From Salipaludibacillus agaradhaerens (GTDB lineage Bacteria > Bacillota > Bacilli > Bacillales > Salisediminibacteriaceae), in the NCBI RefSeq assembly GCF_002019735.1, contig NZ_KV917378.1:1576869-1640868 (forward strand): a stretch of 64,000 nt of DNA, in the 5' to 3' direction. The notes beneath the pieces are model-generated. The model was given only the letters and a program-made list of their open reading frames with translations. It was not told the DNA's origin and did not search any database. Made by a program: the position numbers and the translations under genes. The stretch's first letter is position 1. Every line of letters begins with the position of its first letter. Below, piece after piece: positions 7,483 through 47,771 of this stretch.

Positions 7483-7529
7483 GTTCCAACCTCTCCTTGT
7501 TCTTCCACTATAAATAAACGTTTATAAAA

Positions 7530-7614
7530 CGAACCTTCAATCAGTGGGAGTTTTCGTTCTTCTCCCACTGATTGGTAGTTGAGTGAATCAGGACATTAGC
7601 GTCCGTTATCTGTG
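7530..7614 (+). repeat. Structured mobile repeat, copy A (internally deleted)
   Basis: An 85-bp shortened copy. It keeps the left hairpin (CAATCAGTGGGAG with CTCCCACTGATTG) and the right end (GCGTCCGTTATCTGTG) but lacks the middle. ATAAAA flanks it exactly on both sides (7524-7529 and 7615-7620), as a target-site duplication would. It lies between divergent ydbM and mreBH genes. Confidence 0.85.
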
Positions 7615-7823
7615 ATAAAAGTATAAACAAAAAAACTCTTTGGCGAAACATTACTGCCTAACAATTATATGACAATCTTCACAGTTGTTTGCTATATTTC
7701 CCGGGAAATCTCCTCGAATTCCACACATTTTCAACATTTATCTTACTAAAGACCCCTATAAAACGACCATGTATGAAGAATGATTATGTAGTAACACCAA
7801 ACGTGATACTGGAGGAATGTAGG

Positions 7824-8834
7824 ATGTTTTCAACTATACAAATCGGCATTGATTTAGGAACTGCCAATTTACTTGTTTATACAAAAAATAAAGGGATGAT
7901 CATTAACGAACCGTCCGTGGTAGCTATCGACACACATACGAATGCAGTGCTTGCTGTAGGAGAAGAAGCGAAACGTATGGTAGGTAAAACACCGGAAAAT
8001 ATCGTGGCTATTCGTCCGTTAAAAGATGGCGTCATTGCTGACTATCAAGTGACCACAGATATGCTTAAGCATATTATGAAAAAAGTATCTAAAAAGCTGG
8101 GAACCCCTCTACGAAAACCTAACGTGGTCGTTTGTACGCCTTCAGGCTCCACGTCCGTTGAAAGGAGAGCGATTTCTGACGCTGTTAAACAGTGCGGTGC
8201 TAAAGACGTTCAATTAATTGAAGAACCTGTTGCCGCTGCAATAGGTGCTGATCTCCCTGTTGAAGAGCCGATTGCAAACGTGATCGTTGATATAGGCGGT
8301 GGCACGACTGAAGTTGCTATCATTTCCTTCGGCGGTGTGGTCTCCTGTCATTCCATTAGAACAGGAGGCGATCAGCTTGATGAGGATATCGTGCAATTCG
8401 TCCGAAAAAAATACAATTTGATGATCGGTCCTAGAACGGCAGAGAATATCAAAATGGAAATTGGATTTGCCCTTGTTGAGCATGAGGAGCTTACGATGGC
8501 TATTCGAGGACGAGACCTTGTAAGCGGCCTCCCAAAAACAATTGATATCTCCTCATACGAAATACAAGAAGCAATTAAAGAATCACTTTTATCCGTTCTA
8601 GAAGCGATTAGAGCGACGTTAGAGGACTGCCCTCCTGAGTTAAGTGGTGATATCGTCGACCGTGGCGTTATTTTAACAGGGGGCGGCGCGTTATTAAATG
8701 GTATGGAAGATTGGTTATCTAATGAAATTGTTGTCCCTGTGCATATCGCACCAAGTCCATTAGAATCTGTCGCCATCGGGACAGGGCGTTCTTTAGTCAT
8801 GATGCAACGCATTCAAACATTAAAACAGCGTTAA
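7824..8834 (+). CDS. mreBH: Actin-like cell-shape protein MreBH
   Basis: A 336-aa bacterial actin that forms membrane-associated filaments and guides the cell wall machinery; in B. subtilis MreBH positions the hydrolase LytE. The actin-type phosphate loops are visible as [13 protein letters not shown] (about 5-17) and [17 protein letters not shown] (about 156-172), with [12 protein letters not shown] near the C-terminus. The start [19 protein letters not shown] and the overall sequence are nearer MreBH than Mbl or MreB. GGAGG lies 8 bases before the ATG at 7824; the open frame extends upstream to 7689 but that part is not conserved-looking. In B. subtilis the gene belongs to the SigI stress regulon; no clear SigI promoter was seen. 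Confidence 0.93.
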
Positions 8835-8897
8835 AATATTCTTATATGACTTCCTCTAAATCGGTGAGGTCGATTAGGTTAACTCATAAGCGTCAAG

Positions 8898-8950
8898 TCA
8901 CGGTTGCACCTTTTTTAACGGCGTAACCGTGAGCCCTTTTTATATCCTTC
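8898..8950 (+). terminator. Terminator downstream of mreBH
   Basis: TCACGGTT (8898-8905) and AACCGTGA (8935-8942) pair over a long loop, followed by GCCCTTTTT. Confidence 0.65.
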
Positions 8951-8992
8951 ATAAACTCTTAAAATTGTCTAACAACTAATACAGAGCTTTCT

Positions 8993-9031
8993 CATAAGAG
9001 GTTATTTATGAGAAAGCCCTGTCCACTTTTA
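8993..9031. terminator. Hairpin between convergent mreBH and carbonic anhydrase genes
   Basis: AGAGCTTTCTCATAA pairs with TTATGAGAAAGCCCT around a short loop. The T run is weak on both strands; it may end the minus-strand carbonic anhydrase transcript. Confidence 0.45.
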
Positions 9032-9035
9032 TCAA

Positions 9036-9596
9036 TTAATTATCATTAATCCATTCTAGCTCGCCTGATTCTAAATGAAATAACATACCTACTACTGGAA
9101 TTCCCCGCCCTACTTTTTTGTATACAGGATGGTTTTTCAAATCAATGATTTGCTGTTTAACGTTATGTCTTTCAAGATCCTCTAGTGTTGGAGATAAGTT
9201 CGTTTTATCAAAGCTATCAATACTTTCTTTGACGTGATCGAGCCAGTTATTCATCGCTTCGTGACGCACTCCTGTGCTTGCAGCGAGGATGCCACCACAG
9301 TTTGTATGACCAATAATTAGTATGTACTTTACTTTCAAAACATCAAGAGCAAAATGAAGGCTGGCGCGTAAACCGTCATCTTCTTCCACAACTTGATTAG
9401 CAATATTTCGATGGGTAAACATCGTTCCTAATGGCATACCTGTAATGGTGGATGGACATGTTCGAGAATCACAGCAAGACAGAACGAAAAAAGAAGGTTC
9501 CTGCCCTTCCCCAAGCTTTTTAAAAAAACCGGGGTCTTCCTGTTTCATTTTAGTCATAAATTGTTGATGGGATGCTTCAATGTGTTGAATATCCAT
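9036..9596 (-). CDS. ytiB: Beta-class carbonic anhydrase, YtiB-like
   Basis: A 186-aa cytoplasmic enzyme interconverting CO2 and bicarbonate. The zinc ligands and catalytic dyad of beta carbonic anhydrases are seen in SCCDSRTCP (about 41-49; Cys-Asp-Ser-Arg) and IIGHTNCGGI (His and Cys ligands). Length matches the short YtiB type rather than plant or YvdA forms. The ATG at 9596 has GAGGTG 6 bases upstream, so the 12 further upstream residues of the open frame are left out. Single gene, ending at a hairpin at 8993-9031. Confidence 0.9.
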   Translation of the reverse strand: MDIQHIEASHQQFMTKMKQEDPGFFKKLGEGQEPSFFVLSCCDSRTCPSTITGMPLGTMFTHRNIANQVVEEDDGLRASLHFALDVLKVKYILIIGHTNCGGILAASTGVRHEAMNNWLDHVKESIDSFDKTNLSPTLEDLERHNVKQQIIDLKNHPVYKKVGRGIPVVGMLFHLESGELEWINDN

Positions 9597-10084
9597 GTTA
9601 CTCACCTCGTTACTCAAATGATATGAAAACAATCAGCAAAGCGAACAATAGCCTCCTGCTTCATGCAACACTCATTCTGCTGTTCGTTTTAATTAGTCTC
9701 TCACAAGACACTCACTTGAGCAAGATAAATGTTCGTAACTTTTTCGCTACATTAAAGATAACTTTAAATGCATTTTCAACATTAATTGATCTGATGAATC
9801 ACGCTACCACTGTCGTTAATATTTCAGTGAGGTGAACCAACACGATCGTTTGTTCAATGCCAAAAGATAGAGATAGTCCTTCAACTCCTTAAATTCCTTC
9901 CGTTATCGCTTCAATCAGACATTAACCGTTGAATAAAAAAGCCCCTAATTATGAGAAAAGGGCTTTTTAAAATTACTATCTTAGCATTCTTGAATGTAAT
10001 ATATAGTTTTCCAAAAAAGGTGCTATCAAATAAGTTCCTTCTTAATATTAAAAATTATTTCAGCACTAAGAAGATAAGGAAAAA
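9597..10084. other. Intergenic, no gene seen
   Basis: Apart from a bidirectional hairpin at 9935-9969, nothing gene-like is seen. An 87-codon plus-strand frame (9572-9835) starts inside the carbonic anhydrase gene and lacks a ribosome site. Confidence 0.5.
9935..9969. terminator. Bidirectional terminator hairpin
   Basis: AAAAAGCCC (9936-9944) and GGGCTTTTT pair, giving T runs on both strands. On the minus strand it lies about 115 bases beyond the end of the 114-aa membrane protein gene. Confidence 0.7.
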
Positions 10085-10429
10085 CTATCTATTTTGATTG
10101 ACAATTTCTGTTTCTGACATATTTTCATCTTTCCATCCAACAGTCAGTTGACTTCCATTTTTCATATCAACTATTACAGAATAATTAAAAGGAAATGCTC
10201 CTGCTTTCATTTTCGAGACTTGTATATTTTCAATATCTTCACAATTTACGGACTCATCCTGTGCAATTGTCAATGTTGCAGAAGCTAAAAGATTTTCTCT
10301 AATATTTTGATCACCATTTTTTACATTTGACACAATCTGAAAACCTATCGAAACTAGCAGTATAATTGTAAGAAATCCCCAACTAATTAATATTATTTTG
10401 TTTCGTACATTTTTCTTAGTATCTGTCAT
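10085..10429 (-). CDS. Small membrane-anchored protein, unknown function
   Basis: A 114-aa protein with a charged N-terminus, a single membrane segment at about residues 11-32 (IILISWGFLTIILLVSIGF) and an extracytoplasmic domain of about 80 residues that includes one cysteine (DESVNCEDIENIQVS) and a beta-rich end (AFPFNYSVIVDMKNGSQLTVGW). No family is recognised. GTGGGGT before the ATG is a weak ribosome site. It follows, on the same strand, a second membrane-anchored unknown protein after 245 bases, so they may be functionally linked. Confidence 0.65.
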   Translation of the reverse strand: MTDTKKNVRNKIILISWGFLTIILLVSIGFQIVSNVKNGDQNIRENLLASATLTIAQDESVNCEDIENIQVSKMKAGAFPFNYSVIVDMKNGSQLTVGWKDENMSETEIVNQNR

Positions 10430-10674
10430 TTGAATTACCCCACTATTTTAAACATAAATCTTGAGATATTATGTACACAAAGTCAAATTCAATTTAAGCA
10501 TTTTCATGTTGAAAGTTGAATTTTGAAAATCAAACATTTATTTGTCAATTGTGGGGATAACATAGTTTAAACTATTCTTCTTGATAATTTAAGTAACATT
10601 TCCAAGTAAATTTGATATTTAATAGTTATTACGACTGAAATTCAAATGAAGTTTTAAATTCACAAACCAATTGG

Positions 10675-11778
10675 CTAAAAACCATTAATGATCTTAAAAT
10701 CATACAAAAACTGTTCATTTACCTTTAAGTTCTTCGTATCAATGTCTATTTCTGATTGCAGCGCCATGTCCAGTAAATTAACGCTTTGTATCGTTGAATC
10801 GTCCCCATTTTTGAAAATATATAACGTCTCGTCATCCCATGCTGGAAATATATCATTATATTCATGATAATCAGGTACGGTGGACAACGTTTCAATGAGG
10901 TTACCTTCTAGGTTAAATTGATATAACATCCCTGTTCCATCATAAAAATAAATAAAATCATCTGTCATGTGAATACCACTATGGCCTTTGCTTGGTAAAT
11001 GTTCAGCTATGTCATCATTATTTTTCACTTCTAAAAAAGGTGTCTCTGATTGTTCCATTGTATTTAAATCAACTTTCCCGAGAGCATAATCATAATCTAT
11101 GTTAACGATATAATAGAGCTGATTGTCTTTAGCTAACATGTCCGTCATAATTAAATAATTGTCTACATCGTCTGCTAGTACAAGAAGCGGCTTATCCTCA
11201 ATTGTCTGATCTAAGGCTATTTGGCGCAAAATAATCTCATTGTTTTCTTCATCATCCTCTTCAATAACAAAAAGGGACTTCCCATCAGAACCAGCAGTAC
11301 TAATAAAATAACGCAACTCTGCAAACTGCATGACGCCATCATGCTCCCAATAGAGATGGGAGCCATATGTCGCCTGATCAATATAACCATGATTGTAGAG
11401 TTCCACACGTTTCCCATCGATCACAGATAAAAAGATAGTTGTGTGCTCTGTGTCTGCTCGTTTTTCTTTTACAATCTCATCGTTATGAATGAAGTAAGTA
11501 TCCTTGTTGTCATTAAGGATAAACATTTCATCCTGTTGATAAATCTGACCTAAATCCATTCCGTCCGTTTTTACTAGTTTTTGTACTTCATTCTCGTCAT
11601 TAATAACGTATAAACTCCCTCTCGTTACGAAATTAGTCGCGGAGGTAGAATAATATAAAAACCCTTTAGCATTCGCCACATCTACTGAGTCATTTCGTCC
11701 AATGAATAGGCTAAAAACAACCGCTACAACAATAAAAACTGCCATGAAAAAGATGAGAAGAATATGCTTTTTCTTCAT
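10675..11778 (-). CDS. Membrane-anchored beta-propeller-like protein, unknown function
   Basis: A 367-aa protein with one N-terminal membrane segment (KKKHILLIFFMAVFIVVAVV, about 2-27) and a large, acidic extracytoplasmic domain. That domain shows repeated strands of the type YIVNIDYDYALGKVDLNT, DDFIYFYDGTGMLYQFNLEG and DETLYIFKNGDDSTIQSVNL, the pattern of DUF5050-like or other six/seven-bladed beta propellers. The acidity suits export by a halophilic or alkaliphilic cell. AGAGGAAC precedes the ATG. No enzymatic residues or partner gene can be named. Confidence 0.7.
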   Translation of the reverse strand: MKKKHILLIFFMAVFIVVAVVFSLFIGRNDSVDVANAKGFLYYSTSATNFVTRGSLYVINDENEVQKLVKTDGMDLGQIYQQDEMFILNDNKDTYFIHNDEIVKEKRADTEHTTIFLSVIDGKRVELYNHGYIDQATYGSHLYWEHDGVMQFAELRYFISTAGSDGKSLFVIEEDDEENNEIILRQIALDQTIEDKPLLVLADDVDNYLIMTDMLAKDNQLYYIVNIDYDYALGKVDLNTMEQSETPFLEVKNNDDIAEHLPSKGHSGIHMTDDFIYFYDGTGMLYQFNLEGNLIETLSTVPDYHEYNDIFPAWDDETLYIFKNGDDSTIQSVNLLDMALQSEIDIDTKNLKVNEQFLYDFKIINGF

Positions 11779-12482
11779 TTATCATGTTCCTCTCTTTATT
11801 ATTTAATAGTTTTATAAGTCACTGTGTGAGGACTATCTCTTATATCTTTAGGATAACGCCTTTCACTCCATTAGTTTCAATGTCTATTTCTACTGTCATC
11901 CTCTCCTCTTGGGTACTATAATTCCTCTTTCATTATACGCCTTTTTTACTAATCATTATAAATATTTGTTAATTTTTTGTGAACATTATAATGATTTCCT
12001 TTATAGGTAACACCACACTAATAACTACTAAATTTCAATAATGTAAAATTATACTAATCTTTTTTGTCTCTCTTCTGCTTTCAAGGGGATCAACGTTCAT
12101 ACAAATGCTTAGAGTTGTTGGATCATAGATATAACGAAATCTTTATTTTCGGAATAGCGTGTAATGGTCGGGGGCGATATTTCATGCACAAAATAACTTG
12201 GAATAAATAGATTGATTTTTTGGGGCTTTAGCTTCCGTAATTCTTTTTATATTCGTATTTAATAATACAATTATAAAAGGTAACTAGACTTTCTTGATGT
12301 TGTAACGTTACTAATACTTTTACCTATATTACTCTTTTTTTAGCTATACCAATGACTCTCAAGAAACGATATGCCAATAAAAATTATTATTATTGAATTA
12401 ACAATAGGGAATTAGAACGCAATATTAGAGAAGAAATTCCCCCCTTGAATTGTTAATGTTTTAACTGAAAGAGGGGATATTT
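11779..12482. other. 700-bp AT-rich intergenic stretch, nothing recognised
   Basis: Divergent upstream region of the propeller protein and the permease. No gene, no riboswitch pattern and no strong hairpin was recognised by eye. Confidence 0.5.
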
Positions 12483-13748: not shown

Positions 13749-13848
13749 TCAATGAAAATTTGAGTTGACGTAATGGTATATTGGGGAGAGGTAAAGTCTA
13801 CCTGGTATTAGCTAAGAGAAACTTTATCAATTGGAGAGAGTTTAATCC

Positions 13849-14427: not shown

Positions 14428-14610
14428 GAATACCTTCTAAAGATTGGGTTTCTCCACAAATCACGTCTCACTCATTAGAATTTCTAAAATATTTAGACAG
14501 GTTAAAAATCATTTTTTCATAAGAATTATCATGGCTCACTTTAATAAGCCTTTCTATTTTTTAAATAATATTTCGTGATAACATTGTTTCTGTTAAGGAG
14601 GGAAAGTCTT

Positions 14611-19863: not shown

Positions 19864-19944
19864 ACATGTCCCCTCCTTCTAACCTACCCTTACTACTAAA
19901 GTAATACCCTCTTCTGAGTCTTTTCAATCATCATTCCCATAAAG

Positions 19945-20149
19945 CGAACCTGCAATCAGTGGAAGTTTTCGTTCTTTTCCCACTGATAAGGAACACAAGC
20001 TAACGTCTTCGCGTCCTGCGAAAACGCTTGTGTGACCAACATCCTGTTGGCCCCAGTGAATCAGGACATTAGCGTCCCTTAGCTCCCGCTTAAATAGATT
20101 ATCTCTGCTCTCTATTTTGAGCCAGGAGGTTTACGGACGCTTATCTGTG
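19945..20149 (+). repeat. Structured mobile repeat, copy B (full length)
   Basis: A 205-bp copy with four nested hairpins: AATCAGTGG/CCACTGAT; ACACAAGC/GCTTGTGT enclosing CGTCTTCGCG/CGCGAAAACG-like arms; CCAACA/TGTTGG; and a long stem from AGCGTCC to GGACGCT enclosing TAAATAGA/TCTATTTTGA. Flanks are ATAAAG (19939-19944) and ATAAAA (20150-20155). Its right end lies inside the 3' end of the TspO-type gene and supplies that gene's last codons. Confidence 0.88.
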
Positions 20150-20908
20150 ATAAAAACCTTTCCACTTAATAAACAAATACAAGGCCATTGCCCCTAAAAT
20201 AATGGCACTTATTAAAGCGGTATAAGCTAAAACAGTGTATTCGTGCCATCTTTCCACGGCAATACCAATAAAGGCCCACGTGAACACGAGTGGATAGACA
20301 GCATCTTTCAACGCAGTTGTTAAATAACCAGCTATTATTAGAGCTATGATCAGCCCTAATATCGTCCACATTTCTGCACTTAACCAAAGCCCATCTTCAA
20401 ATCCTAATGAATTAAAGACAACACCAATATTGACGATAAAAGCAACGGAAATCCATCCCATATAAACTGAAAAAGGCAGCCGCATCCAAATCGTTACGTT
20501 CGAGTGTGCCCCATCGATCCGATAATAAATCATAATTAAATTAATTAGTAAACCTGTCATGATCACCATTGACAACATAAAATAGCCATAATGAAAGGCT
20601 AAAAGCCAGCTGCCATTTAATAAACCGTTAATGAAAAACGCCAATCCTATTCTCTCATATGCGGCGTAATCAACATCTTGAATAGAAATAAATTGTCTTA
20701 TGACCCAAATGGCAAGCAGGGCGTATATCACGCTCCAAATACTAAAGACATAACCGGCTGGTGTAAATAACACATTTAACCGATCTGCTAGTTCCCCAGT
20801 TGTAATATTATTAAATGGTAAAGTATTAGATAAAGCATTTATAATGATGACAACGATTAATGTCACTAAGTTTATCCATTTAAGCTTCTGCAATTTTCTC
20901 TGAGTCAT
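20141..20908 (-). CDS. Large TspO/MBR-type membrane protein
   Basis: A 255-aa protein with about eight membrane segments. The TspO-like signature is FTPAGYVFSIWSVIYALLAIW (about 48-68) with tryptophan-rich later helices (GSWLLAFHYG, YMGWISVAFIVNIGV). This long class of tryptophan-rich sensory proteins is common in Bacilli; TspO proteins bind porphyrins and related ligands, but the role of the long class is unknown. AAAGGAG precedes the ATG. Oddly, the last residues H-R and the stop codon come from the end of repeat copy B, so the original C-terminus was replaced or cut. Confidence 0.85.
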   Translation of the reverse strand: MTQRKLQKLKWINLVTLIVVIIINALSNTLPFNNITTGELADRLNVLFTPAGYVFSIWSVIYALLAIWVIRQFISIQDVDYAAYERIGLAFFINGLLNGSWLLAFHYGYFMLSMVIMTGLLINLIMIYYRIDGAHSNVTIWMRLPFSVYMGWISVAFIVNIGVVFNSLGFEDGLWLSAEMWTILGLIIALIIAGYLTTALKDAVYPLVFTWAFIGIAVERWHEYTVLAYTALISAIILGAMALYLFIKWKGFYHR

Positions 20909-23280: not shown

Positions 23281-23387
23281 TTTCTCATCATCCTTCTTAA
23301 TAAAAACATTCTTTGTTTATTGTAGCTGAAAATTTTCGTTAAAGACAGATTCGAAACAAATTTCATCTGCGAAACACACCTATAAAA

Positions 23388-23513
23388 CGAACCTTCAATC
23401 AGTGAGAGTTTTCGTGCTTCTCCCACTGATGAGTAGTTGACTTAGCTCCCGCCTTAATAGATTTCGCTTTCTTCTCTATTTTGTGGTTGGCGTTTTATGG
23501 ACGCTTATCTGTT
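23388..23513 (+). repeat. Structured mobile repeat, copy C (partial)
   Basis: A 126-bp copy with left flank ATAAAA (23382-23387), the left hairpin AATCAGTGAGAG/CTCCCACTGAT and the right stem, but no middle hairpins; the right end stops at TTATCTGTTG without the usual flank. Confidence 0.75.
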
Positions 23514-25567: not shown

Positions 25568-25573
25568 ATAAAA

Positions 25574-25669
25574 CCTTCAATCAGGACTGAGCATCCGTTA
25601 TCACCCGCCTAAATAGAGTTACCTCTTCTCTCTATTTTGAGCCGACAGTTTGACGGACGATTAGCTGTG
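25574..25669 (+). repeat. Structured mobile repeat, copy D (partial)
   Basis: A 96-bp copy lacking the left hairpin's second arm and the middle. The right stem is well kept (CCTAAATAGAG with CTCTATTTTGAG). Flanked by ATAAAA (25568-25573) and ATAAAC (25670-25675). It sits directly on the T run of the preceding terminator. Confidence 0.75.
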
Positions 25670-25764
25670 ATAAACGAAGCTCTATTTATTAAACGAATGT
25701 TAGAACACAAAAATAATAATTGACGGTACAACATATTAGTATAATCAATAGGGAGCTGAATTAG

Positions 25765-26148: not shown

Positions 26149-26870
26149 CACGCATAAATAATGTCATCATTTTCAGTTTAATCATTCTAGTTGTTCAGAG
26201 CTGAAAAAAGGTGATAACTGGTTAAAGGTGGATTTGGAAGGGTTATCGCCTGACTTATCCATTATAAAGGACCTTTTTCTTTGCATAACTTTAATGGACT
26301 TTAAAACGAGATAACATGAGTGACAAAAAAGACGTGTGACATCCTGGCTTGTCATTAATAAAAAACCTCGTTTACGTACCTTTTTTATAAACTAAATCAC
26401 CTCCTCTTTACTTGTGGATAAGAAGTCTTGTCAAAATGAGGTCATTAGCGAAAGTAAAATAAGCGGATATTTTCCGGTTAGATGCAGAAAAGACCTCATA
26501 TTGGGGTATATAGGGGGAAATTTTCCGATTATGCAAAGCAAAACAAGCCAATTTCAGATTTTCCGAGTCAATAGGCGGAATTTCTCCGTCTATTTAAGCT
26601 ATTTCCATTGCCAATGACTATTTAAGAGTATTTTCTCCGCCTATTTCTCAGATCGGGTTCTTAACCTGATCCCCCAACCGATAAAAGCGCATTCTCACGA
26701 TCCCATATGGGGAATCAACATATTATTTTCGACTAGCTGAGAAAACACCTTTTTCACTGTCTAGTTCATCCCTCAGGCCTATCACTTGCTGAACTTCTCT
26801 TTAATTTGGTCATGTGAAAAGCGGATCACGGTCCCCCGTCAATCACCAACTATTTTTGACGATTCCAGAC
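26149..26870. repeat. Large interspersed repeat, copy L1
   Basis: About 720 bp whose segments recur in order at 37250-38085: ATGTCATCATTTTC, GACTTATCCATTATAAA, GCGGATATTTTCCGGTTA, AAATTTTCCGATTATGCAAA, CTCAGATCGG, TCACTTGCTGAA and AAGCGGATCACG. It contains a series of imperfect CGGA/TCCG palindromes. On the minus strand traces of a protein are seen (reading DRDPLF then, after stops, REVQQVIG), so it looks like decayed coding DNA. It has the uninterrupted site (TTTTTTATAAAC at 26391-26402) where the other copy carries a mobile repeat. Confidence 0.75.
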
Positions 26871-26883
26871 GATAGACATAAAA

Positions 26884-27028
26884 CGAACCTTTAAAAGTGG
26901 GAGTTTTCGTTCTTCTTCCACTGATTGATAGTTGAGTCAATCAGGATATGAGCGTCCGTTATCCCCGCATATATAGTTAATCTCTCCTCCCTATTTTGAG
27001 CCGAGAGTTTTACGGTCGGTTATCTGTG
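26884..27028 (+). repeat. Structured mobile repeat, copy E
   Basis: A 145-bp copy flanked by ATAAAA (26878-26883) and ATAAAT (27029-27034), directly behind the large repeat L1. Left hairpin and right stem are present, the middle hairpins are missing. Confidence 0.8.
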
Positions 27029-27150
27029 ATAAATAAACTCCCCTAAAGCTAGAGAAAGAATCTCGATGTGCCGTAGGGGAGTCTTGATAAGTGAGGACGT
27101 CGGATAAAAAGCTCATCCGTTGCTAAACGTTTGTTTCATAGAAAGCTCGT

Positions 27151-29433
27151 TTATTGGGAAACCTTCCATTCTTCTCTTACTTTCTTCGTAGCTGTCACCA
27201 TATTTTTCAACGCTGCAATTGTTTGCTCTTCTGTTCGCGTTTTCAATCCACAATCTGGGTTCACCCAAAAGGCTTGTGCTGGTAAAACATTCAATGCTTG
27301 TTTAATCACATTTAACATCTTCTCAACATTTGGAATTTGAGGACTATGAATATCGTAAACACCTAAACCGATCCCTTTATCATAGACATTCGTTTTAAAT
27401 GTCTCAATGAGTTCACCGTGACTGCGGGACGTCTCTATAGAAATAACATCAGCGTCTAATGCTTTAATGGAATCAATGATGTCATGAAACTCACAGTAGC
27501 ACATATGAGTATGAATTTGTGTCGTTGGTTTTACTTGAGCAGTTGCCAATCTAAACGCTTCAACTGCCCAATCTAAGTATGCTTGTTGCTCATGTTTCTT
27601 TAATGGCAATCCTTCTCTCAACGCCGGTTCATCCATTTGAATCATCTCGATCCCTGCTTGTTCAAGGGCCTTCACCTCTTCTACTAAAGCTTTTGCGATT
27701 TGCCTTGTGACGTCTCGATTAGGTATATCATTGCGAACGAATGACCAGTTTAAAATGGTGACAGGTCCTGTGAGCATTCCTTTTACCGGCTTTTTCGTCA
27801 ATGATTGAGCAAATTTCGTCTCTTTCACCGTCATTGGTTTTTCAAAGCTCACATTCCCATAAACCACCGGAGGTTTTACACAACGGGAGCCGTATGATTG
27901 CACCCAGCCATTTTGTGTTACGGCAAAGCCATTCAGCTTTTCACCGAAATACTCGACCATATCATTCCGTTCGAATTCACCGTGTACAAACACGTCTAGT
28001 CCCACTTCTTCTTGGATCGTAATCCACTTTTCAATTTTCCCCTTAACGAAAGTGTCATATGTGTCATCATCAAGCTCTCCCCGACGCCATTCAGTACGTG
28101 TTCGCTTCACATCACGTGTCTGGGGGAAACTCCCAATCGTTGTCGTTGGTAAAAACGGAAGGTGCCATTTCTTTTCTTGTAATTCTTTTCTCTCTTCATA
28201 CGTATGCGTTCGTTCAGTAGGCAAGTCCGAGTCAGTTGAAATGTCTGTTAGTTTTCTAAATGGGGCATGCTTAAACGTGTCAACTGACTGTTGATACTCT
28301 TCAAACGTTTGTTTCGCCGCTTCATCTGTTGGATGATTGCTTATCGTTTTTAACAAGTGTAATTCATACAATTTTTCCTCGGCATACGACAAACCGTTAA
28401 GGAGTTCTTGATCTAATTTCGTTTCATATTTTAATGTAACTGGCACATGTAATAAACTCGACGATGGCTGAACAAGTAAGTGTTCAGAGGGAACAACTTC
28501 TTGTAGCTCTGTTAAGAGAGACAACGCATCACGTACATCTGTTTTCCAAATATTACGGCCATCAATGATACCAGCGCCTAATAATTTGCCTTCTGGAAAC
28601 CCATGAGCTTTAATTGCTTGTAAATTCACACCTTTATCATGAATAAAATCTAGTCCAATCCCTTTAACAGGAAGTGAGACAATTTGCTCAAAATGATCAA
28701 TTGAACCGAAATACGTTTGGAGCAACAAGCTAACTTCTGGAAGTTTCTCAGCTAATTCACGGTAAATTCCTTTCAGCTGCTCAATATCTCCTTCTGATAA
28801 TGTGGTAACAAGTGATGGCTCATCTAATTGGATAAGTGAAGCGCCAGCTTGATACAGTTCTGATATGACTTGTTCATACAACGGAACTAATTTTTCTGCC
28901 AACTGTGGAAATTCATTGTTTGTATAACCCTTTGATAACTTCAAAAATGTAAATGGTCCTATAAGCACAGGCTTGGCTTCAATTCCTAACTCTTTCTTCG
29001 CTTCTTCATATGCTTGAAGGGTATAGTTGGTCGTTACTTTAGGTACCCAGCCTCGATGAAATTCCGGCACAATGTAGTGATAATTTGTATCAAACCATTT
29101 CGTCATTTCGCATGCTTCCCCATCATCACTACCTCTTGCCATAGCAAAATAAGTATCTAAAGGGTCTGCTGGTGATTTTGCAAACCGCTCTGGAATGACG
29201 TTAAACATGAGTGCCGTATCCAGCACATGATCATAAAAGCTAAAATCTCCAACTGGTATATAATCAACATATGCATCACGTTGCTTTTGTAAATGAGATA
29301 AACGAATCTGTTTCATTTCCTCGTAAAATCGTTCCTTTGAGCGTTCCCCTTTCCAATAAGCTTCAAGCGTCCGCTTCCATTCTCGTTGTTCCCCTATACG
29401 TGGATATCCTAATTGACTTGTTTTTAGTGCCAT
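27151..29433 (-). CDS. metE: Cobalamin-independent methionine synthase MetE
   Basis: A 760-aa cytoplasmic zinc enzyme transferring the methyl group of methyltetrahydropteroyl-triglutamate to homocysteine. Two related barrels are seen: the N-terminal one starts TSQLGYPRIGEQREWKR, the catalytic C-terminal one has LPTTTIGSFPQTRDVKRTR. The zinc ligands are in QIHTHMCYCEFHDI (His, Cys) and WVNPDCGLKTR (Cys). The start at 29433 has AAAGGAGG 8 bases upstream; the ATG at 29439 would be too close. It is preceded by a SAM-I riboswitch, a cobalamin riboswitch and a terminator, so it is made only when SAM and adenosylcobalamin are both low. Confidence 0.97.
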   Translation of the reverse strand: MALKTSQLGYPRIGEQREWKRTLEAYWKGERSKERFYEEMKQIRLSHLQKQRDAYVDYIPVGDFSFYDHVLDTALMFNVIPERFAKSPADPLDTYFAMARGSDDGEACEMTKWFDTNYHYIVPEFHRGWVPKVTTNYTLQAYEEAKKELGIEAKPVLIGPFTFLKLSKGYTNNEFPQLAEKLVPLYEQVISELYQAGASLIQLDEPSLVTTLSEGDIEQLKGIYRELAEKLPEVSLLLQTYFGSIDHFEQIVSLPVKGIGLDFIHDKGVNLQAIKAHGFPEGKLLGAGIIDGRNIWKTDVRDALSLLTELQEVVPSEHLLVQPSSSLLHVPVTLKYETKLDQELLNGLSYAEEKLYELHLLKTISNHPTDEAAKQTFEEYQQSVDTFKHAPFRKLTDISTDSDLPTERTHTYEERKELQEKKWHLPFLPTTTIGSFPQTRDVKRTRTEWRRGELDDDTYDTFVKGKIEKWITIQEEVGLDVFVHGEFERNDMVEYFGEKLNGFAVTQNGWVQSYGSRCVKPPVVYGNVSFEKPMTVKETKFAQSLTKKPVKGMLTGPVTILNWSFVRNDIPNRDVTRQIAKALVEEVKALEQAGIEMIQMDEPALREGLPLKKHEQQAYLDWAVEAFRLATAQVKPTTQIHTHMCYCEFHDIIDSIKALDADVISIETSRSHGELIETFKTNVYDKGIGLGVYDIHSPQIPNVEKMLNVIKQALNVLPAQAFWVNPDCGLKTRTEEQTIAALKNMVTATKKVREEWKVSQ

Positions 29434-29470
29434 CTTCATTTCCTCCTTTAAAAGTGAGTTGTTCCTTCCT

Positions 29471-29516: not shown

Positions 29517-29571
29517 ATTACATGTCTTAGATATTTAACACCTCCCTATTTCCCCGTAGGATAACAGTGTT

Positions 29572-29756
29572 GTGATAATAGGCAGGTCTCCTGACTCGTC
29601 TCTCATCATGAATATGGTCTTCCCAGAATAAGATATTGACTTCCAGTGACTTGGTCATATTCACTCTTGACTTACAGTGGCGGGACCGTTCTGGATTTAC
29701 ACCAGATTCCCTTTTAATCATTCAGCGTATTAAACGCTAAATGAACCTATCTCACG
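29572..29756 (-). promoter_or_regulatory. Cobalamin (AdoCbl) riboswitch
   Basis: The minus strand carries the B12 aptamer core: AAAGGGAATCTGGTGTAAAT, CCAGAACGGTCCCGCCACTG, and the 3' box GAGTCAGGAGACCTGCC. Outer stem GTGAGATAGG (5') pairs with CCTATTATCAC (3'). A terminator follows at 29471-29516. Adenosylcobalamin binding should cause early termination upstream of metE. Confidence 0.95.
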
Positions 29757-29863
29757 ACTATGAAGTTTTTATAAGAAAACAGGCTTAGGACGTCCTCAAT
29801 AAACGAGAGGTCAGAAGCTAGTTTCTAATCGTACCATTACATTGAGGAACGTTATACCATCGT

Positions 29864-29909
29864 AAAAAACCCCTTCTCTCACTAATAATTTAGATGAGAA
29901 AAGGGGTTG
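29864..29909 (-). terminator. Terminator of the SAM riboswitch
   Basis: AACCCCTTTTCTCA pairs with TGAGAGAAGGGGTT on the minus strand, followed by TTTT, directly after the SAM aptamer. Confidence 0.9.
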
Positions 29910-29932
29910 ATAGCAGTATTAAATGCAGATCA

Positions 29933-30046
29933 CGTCTCTCTCATCTTTGAAATGCTAAGCATTCCTCTGAAATTGGCACCGTGTACGAACGTACTGGTTG
30001 CCGAGGTCTCATAGGGTCAGTCCCTCCACCTCTCTGGATAAGAATC
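29933..30046 (-). promoter_or_regulatory. SAM-I riboswitch (S-box)
   Basis: The minus strand has the S-box core in order: CTTATCCAGAGAGGTGGAGG, GACTGACCCTATGAGACC, CGGCAACC, GGTGCCAATTTC and the closing GATGAGAG. The downstream hairpin at 29864-29909 ends transcription when SAM is bound. It is the first of two riboswitches in series before metE. Confidence 0.95.
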
Positions 30047-37249: not shown

Positions 37250-38085
37250 ATTGCATAAAAATGTCATCATTTTCTGTTTAGAGCCAAAGGCCCGATTAAA
37301 GGTGGATTTTGCCGGGTTACCATCTGACTTATCCATTATAAATTTTCTTTGTACAACATAACTTTAATGAACAAAAAAGACACGTGACATCCTAATAGGG
37401 AAGGGGTGTCCTTAATAAAAACCTCGTTTTACGCCCCTTTTTTATCACAGATAACCGTCTAACAATCAATAGGATAAGAGCGAAAACGCCCACTGAATTG
37501 AAGGTTCGTTTTATAAACTTGTTCCCCTCTTTATTTAGATTAAGAAGCTTGTCAATAATCGAGTCATTAGTGAGAGTAAAATAAGCGGATATTTTCCGGT
37601 TAAATGCAGAAGAGAGCTCATCTTTAGGAATATAGGGGAAAATTTTCCGATTATGCAAAGCAAAACGAGCCATTTTCTGATTTTCCGAGGCAATAGGCGG
37701 AATATCTCCATCTATTTAAGCTATTGTCAATGCTAAATGACTCATTAAGAGAAATTTCTCCTTCTATTTCTCAGATCGGACTCTTAACCTGATACCTCAG
37801 CCGATACGAGTGAATCGGCACGATCCCAGATACGGAAATCAGCCTCTTTTAAAGCACTTTTTTCACCGTTTTGTCACTTAGCTTTAAATGCTTCTGGCGT
37901 TCTATAAGGGATATGATTTCTCCTTTTCGAATGGCTAGCCGCTGCACTTCCTTTTCTACTAAAGATAGACTGGTGTGGTCACATTCATCTCCCAACCATC
38001 AAGCAATCGGCCAATCACTTGCTGAATTTCTCTTAAACTTTGTCCTATAAAAAGCGGATCACGATCCATCCGTCAATCACAAACT
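37250..38085. repeat. Large interspersed repeat, copy L2
   Basis: About 830 bp, the second copy of the element at 26149-26870. It is longer and less decayed near its right end: on the minus strand one frame reads DPLFIGQSLREIQQVIGRLL and, after a frameshift, EVQRLAIRKGEIISLIERQK followed by HLKLSDKTVKKVL and a stop. This is coding remnant of an unrecognised protein. Relative to L1 it carries mobile repeat copy F. The remainder up to 38461 has no gene; a GACTAG/CTAGTC hairpin with a T run sits at about 38228-38262. Confidence 0.75.
37446..37508 (-). repeat. Structured mobile repeat, copy F (short), nested in L2
   Basis: A 63-bp remnant with both ends kept (CACAGATAACCGTC at one side, AATTGAAGGTTCG at the other). 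TTTTAT flanks it on both sides (37440-37445, 37509-37514), while L1 has a single uninterrupted TTTTTTATAAAC at the matching place: an insertion with a 6-bp target duplication. Confidence 0.8.
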
Positions 38086-39682: not shown

Positions 39683-39775
39683 TTTTAAACACGCTCCCTT
39701 TAATATGCTTTCAAAATTTTATTATGACCTACTGATAGCTTTCTATTTCACCAAACCTATAAGCCACTCTAACTA

Positions 39776-42148: not shown

Positions 42149-42225
42149 GATAGAAGCATAGATTATGTCATTATCAAATCCAATCGGCGACTAAGTTAAT
42201 GCCGATTGGATTTTTGTATAAACAG

Positions 42226-43323: not shown

Positions 43324-43359
43324 GATTGCCCTCACTTTTGTTATACTTTCTCAATTTTT

Positions 43360-43389
43360 TTGTTCCTCTAATTATTATTATGATAGTAT
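43360..43389 (+). promoter_or_regulatory. Candidate promoter of the thiMDE leader
   Basis: TTGTTC (43360-43365) and TAGTAT (43384-43389) are 18 bases apart, about 30 bases before the TPP aptamer. Matched by eye. Confidence 0.5.
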
Positions 43390-43417
43390 AGAGATGATAG
43401 AAAAAACAATAGTTTAA

Positions 43418-43505
43418 CCACTAGGGGTGCCTTCGGGCTGAGATAAGCGATTGCTTAATCCCTTTGAACCTGATCTGGAACAGCATGCCAGCGTAGGAAA
43501 GTGGA
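43418..43505 (+). promoter_or_regulatory. TPP riboswitch (THI box)
   Basis: The thiamine pyrophosphate aptamer is complete: CTAGGGGTGCC, GGGCTGAGAT, CCCTTTGAACCTGATCTGG and GCCAGCGTAGGAAAGTGG in order. The terminator at 43519-43546 follows at once, so TPP binding should stop transcription before thiM. Confidence 0.97.
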
Positions 43506-43518
43506 ACGACTCTTTTCA

Positions 43519-43546
43519 CCTTTCGTTCTGCGCGAACGGTTTTTTA
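43519..43546 (+). terminator. Riboswitch terminator before thiM
   Basis: CGTTC and GAACG pair around TGCGC, extended by ACC/GGT, followed by TTTTTT. Confidence 0.8.
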
Positions 43547-43595
43547 TGTTTCATTTTACTTCTAAAAGATGTAAAATAAGGAAAGGGGTTAGAAG

Positions 43596-44393
43596 ATGTT
43601 ACCTGTTAATGAATTACGAAACATTATTCAAGAAAAATCTCCGCTTATCCACAACATTACAAATGTGGTGGTAACAAATTTCACAGCAAATGGCCTTTAT
43701 GCCCTCGGTGCCAGTCCTGTTATGGCATATGCTGAAGAAGAAGTAGCCGATATGGCCAGTGTGTCACAAGCGTTAGTCATTAATATTGGCACGTTAACTA
43801 AACCGGTTGTTAATGCCATGCTACTTGCTGGTAAAGCAGCAAATAAAGCGGGCGTTCCTATTATCCTTGATCCAGTAGGTGCTGGGGCGACACCTTATCG
43901 AACAGAAACGGTCCAACGATTATTAAACGAGCTTGATATTACGCTTATACGGGGTAATGCTAGCGAAATTGCTAACCTTTCAGACGAGAATGTCAAAATG
44001 AAAGGCGTCGATTCTACTGCTGAAGTAACTGATGCGGCTGAGATTGCAAAAAATGTTGCATTAAAATGGAAAACCGTGACGGCACTTACCGGAAAAACAG
44101 ATGTCATTACCGATGGTCACATAACGTACACCGTTGAAAATGGTCATGCTCTTCAATCCAAAATTACGGGAGCTGGTTGTTTATTAAGTGCTGTCACAGG
44201 TGCTTTTATCGCTGTCCATGATAATGTCGTCGAAGCTGCCGCCGCTGCCATTGGCTTTTATGGGGTAGCCGCTGAACATGCTGCAACACGTCGTGACAAT
44301 ATGGGGCCTGGCCATTTTCAAATGCACTTTCTCGACGCCCTTTATGACTTAAAACCAGAAGATATTGAGCAACTCATCTCGATTCATTCTTAG
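43596..44393 (+). CDS. thiM: Hydroxyethylthiazole kinase ThiM
   Basis: A 265-aa ribokinase-fold enzyme that phosphorylates 4-methyl-5-hydroxyethylthiazole with ATP, a salvage step of thiamine synthesis. Family segments are SPLIHNITNVVVTNFTANGL (about 15-34), GASPVMAYAEEEV, DPVGAGATPYRTE, IRGNASEIANL and the anion hole ITGAGCLLSAVTGAF (about 190-204, with the catalytic Cys region). AAGGGG precedes the ATG by about 8 bases. First gene of a TPP-controlled thiM-thiD-thiE operon. Confidence 0.97.
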   Translation: MLPVNELRNIIQEKSPLIHNITNVVVTNFTANGLYALGASPVMAYAEEEVADMASVSQALVINIGTLTKPVVNAMLLAGKAANKAGVPIILDPVGAGATPYRTETVQRLLNELDITLIRGNASEIANLSDENVKMKGVDSTAEVTDAAEIAKNVALKWKTVTALTGKTDVITDGHITYTVENGHALQSKITGAGCLLSAVTGAFIAVHDNVVEAAAAAIGFYGVAAEHAATRRDNMGPGHFQMHFLDALYDLKPEDIEQLISIHS

Positions 44394-44405
44394 GAGGACA
44401 ACATA

Positions 44406-45236
44406 ATGTTACCTAAAGCTCTTACGATTGCCGGCTCTGATAGCGGAGGCGGAGCGGGTATTCAAGCGGACCTTAAAACCTTTCAGGAACTTGACGTGTT
44501 TGGTATGAGTGCGATTACTGCCATTACCGCACAAAACAGTCAAGGTGTCAGCGGGGTGTATCCTGTCCCACCCGAAGGTATCTCGCAACAGATTACAGCT
44601 GTGGCGGATGATATTGGTGCTGATGCGGTTAAAACCGGCATGTTATTTGACGAACCGACGATTAAAATCGTTGCTGAAAAAGCCGCTAATTATAATTGGA
44701 CAAATTTAGTTATTGATCCTGTCATGGTATCTACATCAGGAGCGAAACTTCTCCAAGACGATGCCATTGAGGCACTTAAAACACAACTATTTCCGTTAGC
44801 AACAATTATTACGCCAAACATTCCTGAAGCTTCAGAAATTACTGGTCGCTCCTTAACCACTTTGGAACAACGAAAAGAAGCAGCCAGAATGATGTACGAG
44901 ATGGGAGCTCGTGCCGTATTAATTAAAGGCGGTCATCATCTTGATGAAACTAAAATTGTTGACCTCTTGTATGATGGAACGACTTATGTTTACTTATCAG
45001 TTCCACGACTCAACACCCGTCATACCCACGGGACTGGCTGTACATATGCCGCCGCAATTACAGCTCATTTAGCTAAAGGTCTCCCTTTAATAGACGCTGT
45101 TAAAGAAGCGAAGACATTTATCCATGTAGCGATTAAACATGGTTTTGCTGTTGGCAAAGGGCCTGGCCCGACGAATCACGCTGCCCCACGTTTCTACAAT
45201 GAACCATTACATGAATTGGAGGTGATCACTGAATGA
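44406..45236 (+). CDS. thiD: Hydroxymethylpyrimidine (phospho)kinase ThiD
   Basis: A 276-aa ribokinase-fold enzyme that phosphorylates 4-amino-5-hydroxymethyl-2-methylpyrimidine twice. Signatures are TIAGSDSGGGAGIQADLKTF (about 7-26), ITAQNSQGVSGVY, VMVSTSGAKLL, TPNIPEASEITG, and the catalytic loop THGTGCTYAAAITAHLAKG (about 207-225). It starts 12 bases after thiM with an AGGAGG site. Its last four bases overlap the thiE start (ATGA), which implies translational coupling. Confidence 0.97.
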   Translation: MLPKALTIAGSDSGGGAGIQADLKTFQELDVFGMSAITAITAQNSQGVSGVYPVPPEGISQQITAVADDIGADAVKTGMLFDEPTIKIVAEKAANYNWTNLVIDPVMVSTSGAKLLQDDAIEALKTQLFPLATIITPNIPEASEITGRSLTTLEQRKEAARMMYEMGARAVLIKGGHHLDETKIVDLLYDGTTYVYLSVPRLNTRHTHGTGCTYAAAITAHLAKGLPLIDAVKEAKTFIHVAIKHGFAVGKGPGPTNHAAPRFYNEPLHELEVITE

Positions 45237-45895
45237 GCGTGTACACACAAGATGACGTCAATTCTCGCTTACGTCTTTATTTCATTTGCGGTAGCACGAA
45301 TGTGAATCGTCCACTTCCAACAATTTTACGAGAAGCGATTTCAGGTGGTATTACAATGTTTCAATTTCGCGAAAAAGGTACAAACAGTCTGACTGGGGAC
45401 AAAAAACTGGCATTAGCCTGTGAATTACAAGCGATTTGCCAAGAACATCACATCCCCTTTATTATTAATGACGATGTAGCATTGGCTATTAAGCTTAATG
45501 CAGATGGCATCCATGTGGGACAAGGTGATGAAAGCGCCGCTTCCGTTCGAGAGAAAATTGGGAGAGACAAGATTCTTGGTGTATCTGCCAACACGTTAGC
45601 CGATGCAAAACAAGCCATAAAAGACGGGGCAACCTATATTGGGACTGGTCCTATGTATGAGACCTCTTCAAAAGATGATGCAGATGACGTATGTGGACCT
45701 GAGAGAATTAAAGAATTCCGGCAAAGAGGGTTGACTATTCCTATCGTTGCCATAGGTGGCATCACAGCTGATAACACTCCTCCTATACTAGCAGCAGGTG
45801 CCAACGGCGTGTCTGTCATTTCGGCCATAGCCGGGGCATCCTCACCAGCTGAAGCTGCCGCTAGATTCAACAAAGCAATTGTTAACAAATTTTAA
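45233..45895 (+). CDS. thiE: Thiamine phosphate synthase ThiE
   Basis: A 220-aa TIM-barrel enzyme joining hydroxymethylpyrimidine diphosphate with thiazole phosphate to give thiamine monophosphate. Seen are FQFREKGTNSLTGDKK (about 43-58), the pyrimidine site FIINDDVALAIKLNADGIHV, GQGDESA, GTGPMYETSSKDD and the phosphate loop AIGGITADN / GANGVSVISAI. GGAGGTG lies just before its overlapping start codon in thiD. Last gene of the operon; no thiazole synthesis genes are seen, so the cluster serves salvage. Confidence 0.97.
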   Translation: MSVYTQDDVNSRLRLYFICGSTNVNRPLPTILREAISGGITMFQFREKGTNSLTGDKKLALACELQAICQEHHIPFIINDDVALAIKLNADGIHVGQGDESAASVREKIGRDKILGVSANTLADAKQAIKDGATYIGTGPMYETSSKDDADDVCGPERIKEFRQRGLTIPIVAIGGITADNTPPILAAGANGVSVISAIAGASSPAEAAARFNKAIVNKF

Positions 45896-45953
45896 TACTA
45901 CCAAAAGTTTCGTGTGAAAACATATCATTAAACAACGTTAGGAGGGGATTTTA

Positions 45954-47252
45954 TTGGATATTGGCAAAAGAATTAGGTTTTATCGGCAATTAAAGGGACT
46001 TACACAGACAGATTTGTGTAAAGGCATCGTCTCACCTTCTCATTATAGTAATATAGAAAGTGGACGATATGACGCCTCCTACGATATACTAAGGTTGCTA
46101 GCGTTGCGTTTAAAAGTTCCTACCGATTACTTCACCCATCATGATCATTACTCTATGCGAGTGGAAAAATTATTAGGTGCTTACCAACTTTCGTTAGAGA
46201 GCTCTTTAGCTGATGCAGAAGCTTTTCACACTAAACATGAACAAGATTTTGCATTTATTCCGTCGTTAGAGCAAGAATTACAATACCTTTTAATCCAATG
46301 TAACCACGCTTTAAGAAGATTTGATCTAGAAGAAGCAGATAGCATTTACAAACATATTTCTTTTTACATGGAAGATTTTGATGAAAAGAATCTATCAAAA
46401 TCAACGCGTTTTCATTACCATTTTATTAATGGGCTTAAGTATTATTTAAGCGGGGACTACTCTAAAAGCTATTATTATTATTTAAATGCTTTAAAACATG
46501 TTTCTCGTGATATGGATACAGCTAAAACGAAATTCAACTGTGCTCAACTTTTTTATGTAATGAATGATTATTATCGTGCTTTATTTTATATCAATGAAGC
46601 GAAGGAAATTTTTGAGAATGTCAATCAGATTTCTAAAACAATCGATTGCCACACGGTAAAAGGACAGATTTTGATAGAATTGAAAGAATATGATCAAGCA
46701 CATCATGCGCTAAATAAAGGATTGTCGATTGCCCGTGATCACAATTATGTGAGAGAAGAAGCGGATTTACTACATACACTCGGCATGCTTCAGGTGGATG
46801 AAAAAGATTATCTTTCTAGTATTGCATCTTTTAAACAAAGTCTTGCTATAAGAGAACGAGAGATTAAGAAGAACAATGGCAATTTCGTGCCTAACCATAG
46901 CTACTATTCATATCACTGGTTAGTTCAAACACATTTATTAGCGGGGAAATATCATGAGATGCGCGAATATTTAAATAAAGCTGATGACTACTGCTTCTCT
47001 GAACACCATTATTACCAATTACTCGTTTATGAAGCAAAGTTAGACTACGCACTCGGTAATGAAAAAGCTTATGAAGAAAAAACTGACAAAGCTTTAAGTT
47101 ACCTTTACAATAATAAACTTTGGCGATTTGTTGAAGATGCCGTTACTGACTTTAGTCAGTATTATTCTAAAAAAAGGCAGTATAAAAAAGCAAATGAATA
47201 TTTGCGCATGGAAGTCGATGTTTACAAAAAATCTTATGTGAGGAGAGATTAA
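45954..47252 (+). CDS. NprR-like RNPP quorum-sensing regulator (HTH-TPR)
   Basis: A 432-aa protein. An XRE helix-turn-helix occupies about residues 5-62 (IRFYRQLKGLTQTDLCKGIV, SPSHYSNIESGRYDASYDIL); the rest (about 75-430) is a series of tetratricopeptide-like helix pairs, for example GDYSKSYYYYLNALKHVSRD, NDYYRALFYINEAKEIFENV, KEYDQAHHALNKGLSIARDH and KDYLSSIASFKQSLAIRERE. This is the layout of NprR/PlcR/Rap proteins that bind re-imported signal peptides. The start is TTG at 45954 with GGAGGGG upstream. A pre-propeptide gene follows one base after its stop, as in known regulator-peptide pairs. Target genes are unknown. Confidence 0.88.
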   Translation: MDIGKRIRFYRQLKGLTQTDLCKGIVSPSHYSNIESGRYDASYDILRLLALRLKVPTDYFTHHDHYSMRVEKLLGAYQLSLESSLADAEAFHTKHEQDFAFIPSLEQELQYLLIQCNHALRRFDLEEADSIYKHISFYMEDFDEKNLSKSTRFHYHFINGLKYYLSGDYSKSYYYYLNALKHVSRDMDTAKTKFNCAQLFYVMNDYYRALFYINEAKEIFENVNQISKTIDCHTVKGQILIELKEYDQAHHALNKGLSIARDHNYVREEADLLHTLGMLQVDEKDYLSSIASFKQSLAIREREIKKNNGNFVPNHSYYSYHWLVQTHLLAGKYHEMREYLNKADDYCFSEHHYYQLLVYEAKLDYALGNEKAYEEKTDKALSYLYNNKLWRFVEDAVTDFSQYYSKKRQYKKANEYLRMEVDVYKKSYVRRD

Positions 47253-47253
47253 C

Positions 47254-47376
47254 ATGAAAAAGAAATTAGCTGTATTATTAACTGTTGTGGTTCTTGTTGG
47301 AGGTGCCCTTTCTCTAACGGCACAAACTGAACAATTTGATTCCACACATACAAGACAAGCTCCAATCGTAGCTTAA
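47254..47376 (+). CDS. Signal pre-propeptide (NprX/Phr-like), partner of the RNPP regulator
   Basis: A 40-aa gene. Basic start MKKK, then a hydrophobic signal segment (LAVLLTVVVLVGGALSL, about 5-21), a polar propeptide (TAQTEQFDSTHTR) and the tail RQAPIVA ending at the C-terminus. This is the arrangement of Phr, NprX and PapR precursors, exported by Sec and trimmed outside. The tail resembles the NprX motif SKPDIVG in having P-x-I-V-small. AGGAGAG inside the 3' end of the regulator gene lies 7 bases before the ATG, and the two genes are one base apart, so they are translationally linked. A weak SigH-like site (AGGCAGT, then TGAAT at 47195-47199) lies upstream within the regulator gene. Confidence 0.85.
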   Translation: MKKKLAVLLTVVVLVGGALSLTAQTEQFDSTHTRQAPIVA

Positions 47377-47378
47377 TA

Positions 47379-47412
47379 GAAAAAGGCACCCGACATCCGG
47401 GTGCTTTTTCTA
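47379..47412 (+). terminator. Terminator of the RNPP-peptide cassette
   Basis: AAAAAGGCACCCG and CGGGTGCTTTTT form a strong stem with a short loop, followed by CTATTT, right after the peptide gene's stop. Confidence 0.92.
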
Positions 47413-47526
47413 TTTGTGTTACTTGCTTCAGCGCCCAGTGAAGTATCTTCTTTAGCCGATACTTCAGTCAGTGCGTTTAAATCTCTATCCTAATTTGTTA
47501 ATGGTTTAATTAGCTCGCTAATTTAC

Positions 47527-47734
47527 CACAGATAACAACCGTCCGTAAAGCTCCCGGCTCATAATAGAGTGGAGAGCTAACTCTATTTAGCCGGGAGAGA
47601 AAGGTGCTAATGACCTGATTAACTCGGGCCAACAGGATGTTGGTCACACAAGCGTTTTCGCAGGACGCGAAGACGTTAGCTTGTGTTCCTTATCAGTGGA
47701 AGAAGAACGAAAATTCCCACTGATTGAAGGTTCG
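47527..47734 (-). repeat. Structured mobile repeat, copy G (full length)
   Basis: A 208-bp copy in opposite orientation to copy B and of almost the same length and content. All hairpins are present, the inner stem best here (CTCCCGGCT with AGCCGGGAG, enclosing ATAGAGT/ACTCTAT). Flanks are ATTTAC (47521-47526) and TATTAT (47735-47740), diverged from the usual TTTTAT. It lies between the quorum-sensing cassette and adenine deaminase. Confidence 0.88.
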
Positions 47735-47771
47735 TATTATTTGAAAAAACGGCCTTTTCTTATACTCATCA

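Follow-up and report, generated by a model that had tools for sequence, protein, structure and literature searches.

Small hairpin repeats whose mover has not been identified are an old puzzle of bacterial genomes. The bcr1 element, of the group A Bacillus cereus repeats, is listed with a length of 167 bp (PMC2267715). In the accessible parts of the reports on it, it is described as mobile, associated with TTTAT and reported only from the B. cereus group (PMC6542083), and as intergenic with a high copy number, on average 39 and up to 130 per strain (PMC6542083, PMC3446304). Orientation following replication is given as a hallmark of IS200/IS605 elements in the available text of one report (PMC5371812), marks of single-strand transposition also being treated in another (PMC6006769), and TTTAT appears as a known target of IS200/IS605-type IStrons (PMC4227781, in part). 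REP hairpins are quoted as 21-65 nucleotides (nt) long, with GTAG/GTGG guides (PMC6006769, in part). A literature search covering few subscription journals returned neither a description of the present family outside the B. cereus group nor a fork-oriented TTTAT repeat in Bacillaceae. Here we analyze a repeat family with seven copies, A to G, in a 64,000-nt stretch of the Salipaludibacillus agaradhaerens genome (contig NZ_KV917378.1, positions 1,576,869 to 1,640,868; the window). We think it probable, with some reserve, that the unit, about 149 nt long, is a mobile, non-autonomous DNA element moving as a folded single strand in the manner of IS200/IS605.

The core unit, defined from copies of the window genome (44 recovered by paired end motifs, 46 in the alignment), runs from ACGAACC to TTATCTGTG in the order ACGAACCTTCAATCAGTGGGAG, first hairpin (H1), linker, second nested hairpin (H2) and TTATCTGTG, and carries no gene. 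The original prediction, made from the sequence of the window, had put the full length at about 205 nt; this is corrected to about 149 nt, as the copies of the greater length, B and G, consist of the core plus a 67-nt module. It had rightly described the ends as lacking terminal inverted repeats, which is equally true in other genomes, where the ends read GTGAAAC and ..GCGGG, and which separates the element from miniature inverted-repeat transposable elements (MITEs). The proposed ATAAAA flank proved to be repeated on both sides, but with a length of 5 bp, ATAAA (TTTAT on the other strand), and the proposed T-rich target TTTTAT proved to be fixed and T-rich, with a repeat at both ends, but to be TTTAT. 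The sixth flanking base, usually A, is constant with the element at the left and variable at the right. Among 128 copies with both ends set, from the window genome (G000) and its congener G006, ATAAA stands at the left in 100, at the right in 97 and on both sides in 80. The left and right pentamers differ in 44 of these copies, and across the flanks of the two genomes ATATA at the left with ATAAA at the right occurs in five copies and the reverse in one. The element may take its left pentamer along when it moves. The second TTTAT may be a true target duplication or element-borne; with TTTAT as the favored target, the two would look alike.

Comparison with congeners argues that the element moves. 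A blastn search within the genus found many copies in G004 and G006 and none in G001, G002, G003, G005 and G007. Mobility had been predicted, and sister sites do not always hold the element: three orthologous sites are empty in a relative. The site of copy B is empty in G006, with one GTAAA, and filled in G004; the right ATAAA of copy D holds an element of a second subfamily in G006 and is empty in the window genome, with one ATAAA; and a G006 insertion at 26571 of the joined stretch is empty in the window genome. A paralogous target adds to these. Within another repeat, the sequence TTTTTTAT is the insertion site of copy F and of three copies in G006 (L104-L106), and an uninterrupted host repeat at 26381 has one TTTTTTAT and thus constitutes a paralogous empty site. 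Three of the interrupted host repeats could be aligned on both sides, and their flanks share an overlap of 5-6 bases. Other comparisons were less informative. Copy G has the same element at the orthologous G004 site. Copy C gave no clean comparison, with larger deletions in both relatives that leave no more than a short 5' remnant in G004, nor did copies D, E and F in G004, where one or zero flanks were found. The same applies to a G004 insertion at 45300 of the joined stretch, which differs from the window by about 11 extra bases and has GTAAA as its left flank, and to the G006 insertions at 50241 (flanks not collinear) and 21802 (left end missing).

The host repeat is itself a second interspersed family of about 600 bp, present at 26222-26834 and 37296-38067 of the window, in which the hairpin element is inserted four times at the same TTTTTTAT. 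It gave four matches in a 400-kb sample of the window genome and many more across G000, G004 and G006.

The insertions are oriented with respect to replication. Origin and terminus were located from GC skew and the direction of genes. The lagging-strand template is the strand that bears TTTAT in 62 of 75 sampled copies of G006 and 29 of 35 of the window genome, and likewise in 116 of 150 model matches of G006 (104 of 135 with tandems collapsed) and 40 of 52 copies of the window genome. Ten stretches of G004, oriented by local GC skew, gave 19 of 22 matches on this template. In genomes from other families the counts were 30 of 41 in G378 and 17 of 25 in G331 (p 0.11), after exclusion of plasmid or small-contig matches (3 of 44 and 5 of 30, respectively). 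The supply of targets was rejected as the cause of this bias, since intergenic TTTAT is evenly split between lagging and leading strands (433/433 in G006; 425/461 in the window genome). Gene direction was rejected as well: of 205 copies examined, 204 are intergenic, and of the 167 for which both neighboring genes could be assigned, 132 lie on the lagging template; among copies between two genes that both oppose the fork, 19 of 20 remain oriented with it. Orientation by the fork, the hairpins and a fixed T-rich pentamer together fit replication-coupled single-strand movement of the IS200/IS605 kind.

The element was predicted to fold, as RNA or single-stranded DNA, and its hairpins do covary between genomes. 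It folds far better than shuffled sequences (z -6.9 for the RNA; z -9.3 for the opposite strand as DNA), with a subterminal hairpin near each end and no terminal inverted repeats, as in IS200/IS605. RNAalifold returned no hairpins in its consensus of the own-genome copies, because these have decayed. That poor structure underlies structural model R1; for model R2 a structure was chosen from single-sequence folds. Alignment A3 comprises 14 of the 17 sequences of alignment A2, and alignment A5 comprises 28 of 30 loci, with L228 and the near-duplicate L246 left out. In the latter, with one element from each of 28 genomes, 19 of 41 pairs covary; they amount to 87 cells, where shuffles average 24.0 (87 reached in 0 of 500 shuffles). 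Its sequences were found by the structural model and hence lean towards its structure, and four features of the L239 fold, weak pairs or small helices, are not among the 41 pairs counted. Between subfamilies, double changes occur in 13 of 38 pairs, while a measure of further pair types shows no excess (19 against 20.8 shuffled). Among 23 copies of one genome, 84.0% of cells are paired, as in shuffles (84.0%), with 4 double-changed pairs against 3.6. Covariation between genomes and none among the copies of one indicate that the fold is kept in moving lineages and not in landed copies; after insertion there is no selection on the fold. Of 1138 cells, 28 are G-U and 20 A-C. As A-C is G-U on the other strand, the near equality suggests that the folding molecule is DNA rather than RNA.

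These features can be assembled into a scheme, in which an enzyme acting in trans would recognize the two subterminal hairpins on the exposed lagging-strand template and would cut beside TTTAT at each end. The excised strand would then be pasted beside an exposed TTTAT of a different fork, in the way of the "peel and paste" of IS200/IS605, and the landed copies would be free to decay, with hairpins dropping out between short direct repeats. In the strand that carries TTTAT, the foot of H1 is preceded by CTAA in 27 of 28 elements and that of H2 by NTTA in 21 of 28. TAA at the hairpin feet is complementary to the TTA of TTTAT, so a guide role, comparable with that in IS608, is possible. By analogy, the element would work like IS200/IS605, without necessarily being a member. 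That it is small and non-autonomous, with a mover still to be found, agrees with the original prediction: it contains no gene, and searches of the host for Y1 transposases and reverse transcriptases were empty.

Several observations weigh against this scheme. The guide idea was read from the alignment after the fact, and the strand bias in G331 is by itself not significant. The Y1 transposase (PF01797) has no match in G000 or G004, and over the 397 genomes surveyed (see below) it does not track the element, being present in 87 of 114 element-bearing genomes and 199 of 283 others (p 0.27; presence lists compiled by hand). G006 does have Y1 proteins; its IS200 was rejected as a source because the ends differ. 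A scan of 42 Y1 loci revealed no insertion sequence (IS) with the ends of the element, one locus (L109) having a separate element beside the IS. Furthermore, TTTAT stands at both ends, whereas IS200/IS605 make no target duplication, which is reconcilable only if one pentamer is element-borne. Y1 as an obligatory present-day mover is thus rejected for G000 and G004 and unsupported over the 397 genomes. An autonomous relative with a gene between such ends was not found in a search confined to the 42 Y1 loci. The mover may have been lost after a burst. The most uniform subfamily is the second subfamily of G006.

A bolder version of single-strand movement, which we regard as speculative and rather unlikely, is a Bacillales-wide superfamily of gene-less single-strand transposons, numbering as many as several hundred in a genome, whose replication-coupled enzyme would be neither Y1 nor reverse transcriptase but either a single-strand transposase of a class not yet described or a host enzyme co-opted for the task.

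Among the rival explanations, site-specific recombination comes next, although we judge it unlikely. An excised circle with one TTTAT would recombine at a TTTAT through a tyrosine recombinase, possibly on a folded single strand, and a mechanism of this type has been suggested for bcr repeats in the part of the report available (PMC6542083). Circle insertion predicts both TTTAT at the two ends and a single TTTAT at tandem junctions, and tandem arrays do exist (152-bp period in G000, 154-bp in G004), with a single TTTAT at their junctions; the unequal pentamers and the excess of ATATA at the left over the reverse arrangement are also in its favor. However, ordinary recombination alone gives no lagging-strand bias, and no recombinase turned up, without any search aimed at recombinases.

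Improbable, in our view, is MITE-like cut-and-paste by a DDE transposase making 5-bp staggered cuts and steered by the fork as Tn7 is by TnsE. It would account for a 5-bp repeat at both ends, and the duplication made by Tn7 is also 5 bp. Tn7 orientation is likewise fork-dependent according to the available text of PMC5371812. The absence of terminal inverted repeats speaks against it, as do the fixed target ATAAA and the frequency of unequal pentamers, and the conserved parts are the hairpins rather than end repeats.

We attach very little weight to RNA-mediated retrotransposition, with an RNA of the element reverse-spliced or reverse-transcribed at forks. The very stable fold would suit it, and some group II introns also prefer the lagging strand. 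Against this, in a search of 14 genomes, reverse transcriptase (PF00078) was absent from five element-rich genomes (G000, G004, G126, G331 and G350), and G-U cells barely outnumber A-C. Elsewhere, the element-free G007 has none and G006 only a broken one. A static repeat, functional as RNA or in regulation and multiplied by segmental duplication, can be nearly dismissed: one module is filed by Rfam as a small RNA (sRNA) gene and almost all copies are intergenic, but the precise empty sites contradict it, as do the patchy presence within one genus, the lack of compensation among the copies of one genome, and constant ends in unrelated flanks.

All seven copies in the window (Table 1) were returned by a covariance model trained on 23 copies of the window genome, one of which (copy E) lies inside the window, with E values of 2.1e-40 to 2.8e-6, so that the predicted family is real. 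Three further matches did no better than chance (E 0.2 to 0.59). Taken by itself, the start motif is poor evidence: with as many as 3 mismatches allowed, it matched 8 times, where shuffled sequence gave 2.07 matches on average. ATAAA flanks copies A, B, D, E and F on both sides. The hairpins are bracketed by the short direct repeats TTATCT and AATCAG, and shortened copies without whole hairpins, as had been proposed, are present (A and D). Copy A measures 83 nt in the window against 148 nt at the orthologous site of G004 and 128 nt in G006, which indicates that its second hairpin was lost after insertion.

Table 1. Copies of the hairpin element and of its 67-nt module in the window.
Feature	Position	Strand	State	Flanks	Basis
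Copy A	7529..7614	+	second hairpin deleted	ATAAA 7524-7528, 7615-7619	covariance model
Copy B	19944..20149	+	full length with module	ATAAA 19939-19943, 20150-20154	covariance model
Module in copy B	19984..20050	+	67 nt		Rfam RF01690 (Bacillaceae-1), 76.8 bits
Copy C	23387..23509	+	degraded	ATAAA left only (23382-23386)	covariance model
Copy D	25573..25669	+	first hairpin deleted	ATAAA 25568-25572, 25670-25674	covariance model
Copy E	26883..27028	+	full length without module	ATAAA 26878-26882, 27029-27033	covariance model
Copy F	37446..37509	-	short; inside copy of another repeat family	TTTAT 37441-37445, 37510-37514	covariance model
Copy G	47527..47735	-	full length with module	TTTAC / ATTAT (read on + strand)	covariance model
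Module in copy G	47629..47695	-	67 nt		Rfam RF01690, 76.8 bits

The RF01690 module sits between the two hairpins in a minority of copies. Ten of its 12 matches in the window genome lie within the element, and the remaining two (G000:C1:2596667 and 2106904) are in rRNA operon spacers, one immediately ahead of 16S rRNA and the other between 5S rRNA and tRNA genes. RF01690, filed by Rfam as an sRNA gene, is therefore mostly mobile-element cargo in the window genome. In another family, locus L241 has RF01690 near or in an element, and locus L070 (G041, again another family) is an element with a different insert between the hairpins and the start motif ATAAACGAGACTT repeated inside.

A first search of the window genome gave at least 57 pieces, with 40 of 326 candidates scored. 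Copy number was estimated from twenty evenly spaced 20-kb stretches (400 kb) per genome, in which fragments and a few overlapping sense and antisense matches were counted. The window genome yielded 35 copies or fragments, 16 with both ends (about 378 per genome), and G006 yielded 75, 47 with both ends (about 849 per genome).

Using model R2, we searched 397 genomes of the order, with 7 candidates scored per genome. Matches were found in 114 of them, belonging to 58 of the 135 sampled genera, and the best E value was at or below 1e-10 in 89 of the 114. Of 30 fetched loci, 29 (all but L238) were displayed with flanks, and nearly all have ATAAA on both sides. Hosts include Evansella clarkii, from the same family as the window genome, and Halalkalibacterium halodurans, while Pseudalkalibacillus hwajinpoensis, Cytobacillus oceanisediminis and Peribacillus asahii carry the element on plasmids. 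G378 is P. hwajinpoensis, its matches having the same coordinates. A blastn search with one copy gave no plasmid match; with a typed consensus it gave four plasmid records, none from the B. cereus group. A phage origin found no support: blastn against phages gave no match, and viral contigs scanned twice with exact patterns yielded none. An element fragment (CP079755.1:221566-221624, L328; R2 E 3e-9) lies on a plasmid recorded as Klebsiella grimontii, which may reflect mis-assembly or transfer.

Two other features of the window are tandem cobalamin and S-adenosylmethionine (SAM) riboswitches (29564-30044, minus strand) upstream of metE, encoding the B12-independent methionine synthase (27151-29439, minus strand), and a 51-bp tandem repeat array in coding-like sequence (57663-58624).

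The family offers a measurable trace of mechanism, in that its strand is set by the fork and not by genes. The wide and patchy host range, covariation between but not within genomes, and natural empty sites narrow the search for the mover and allow clean tests.

Compared by description only, the element resembles bcr1 in size class, TTTAT at the ends, lack of a gene, mobility and many intergenic copies. In contrast to bcr1, reported as confined to the B. cereus group, it spreads across many genera, and the accessible parts of the bcr1 literature contain no report of fork-oriented insertion that we could find. Bhal-1 and Bhal-2 of Bacillus halodurans are likened to it by description only: in the available text they are small intergenic stem-loop repeats of 74-76 bp in an alkaliphilic member of the Bacillaceae (PMC2267715). 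Bacillaceae-1 RNA (RF01690) is carried by a minority of copies as a passenger module and is not the element itself. With the REP/REPIN sequences moved by RAYT, the element shares many intergenic hairpin copies, sometimes clustered, but it is 149 nt long with two unlike hairpins, and neither G000 nor G004 has a Y1/RAYT protein. Finally, IS200/IS605 elements and their palindrome-associated non-autonomous elements (PATEs) share with it a hairpin near each end, no terminal inverted repeats, a T-rich pentanucleotide target and lagging-strand orientation; it differs from them in the lack of Y1 in G000 and G004 and of any association with Y1, in that no IS with its ends was found among the 42 Y1 loci scanned, and in carrying TTTAT at both ends.

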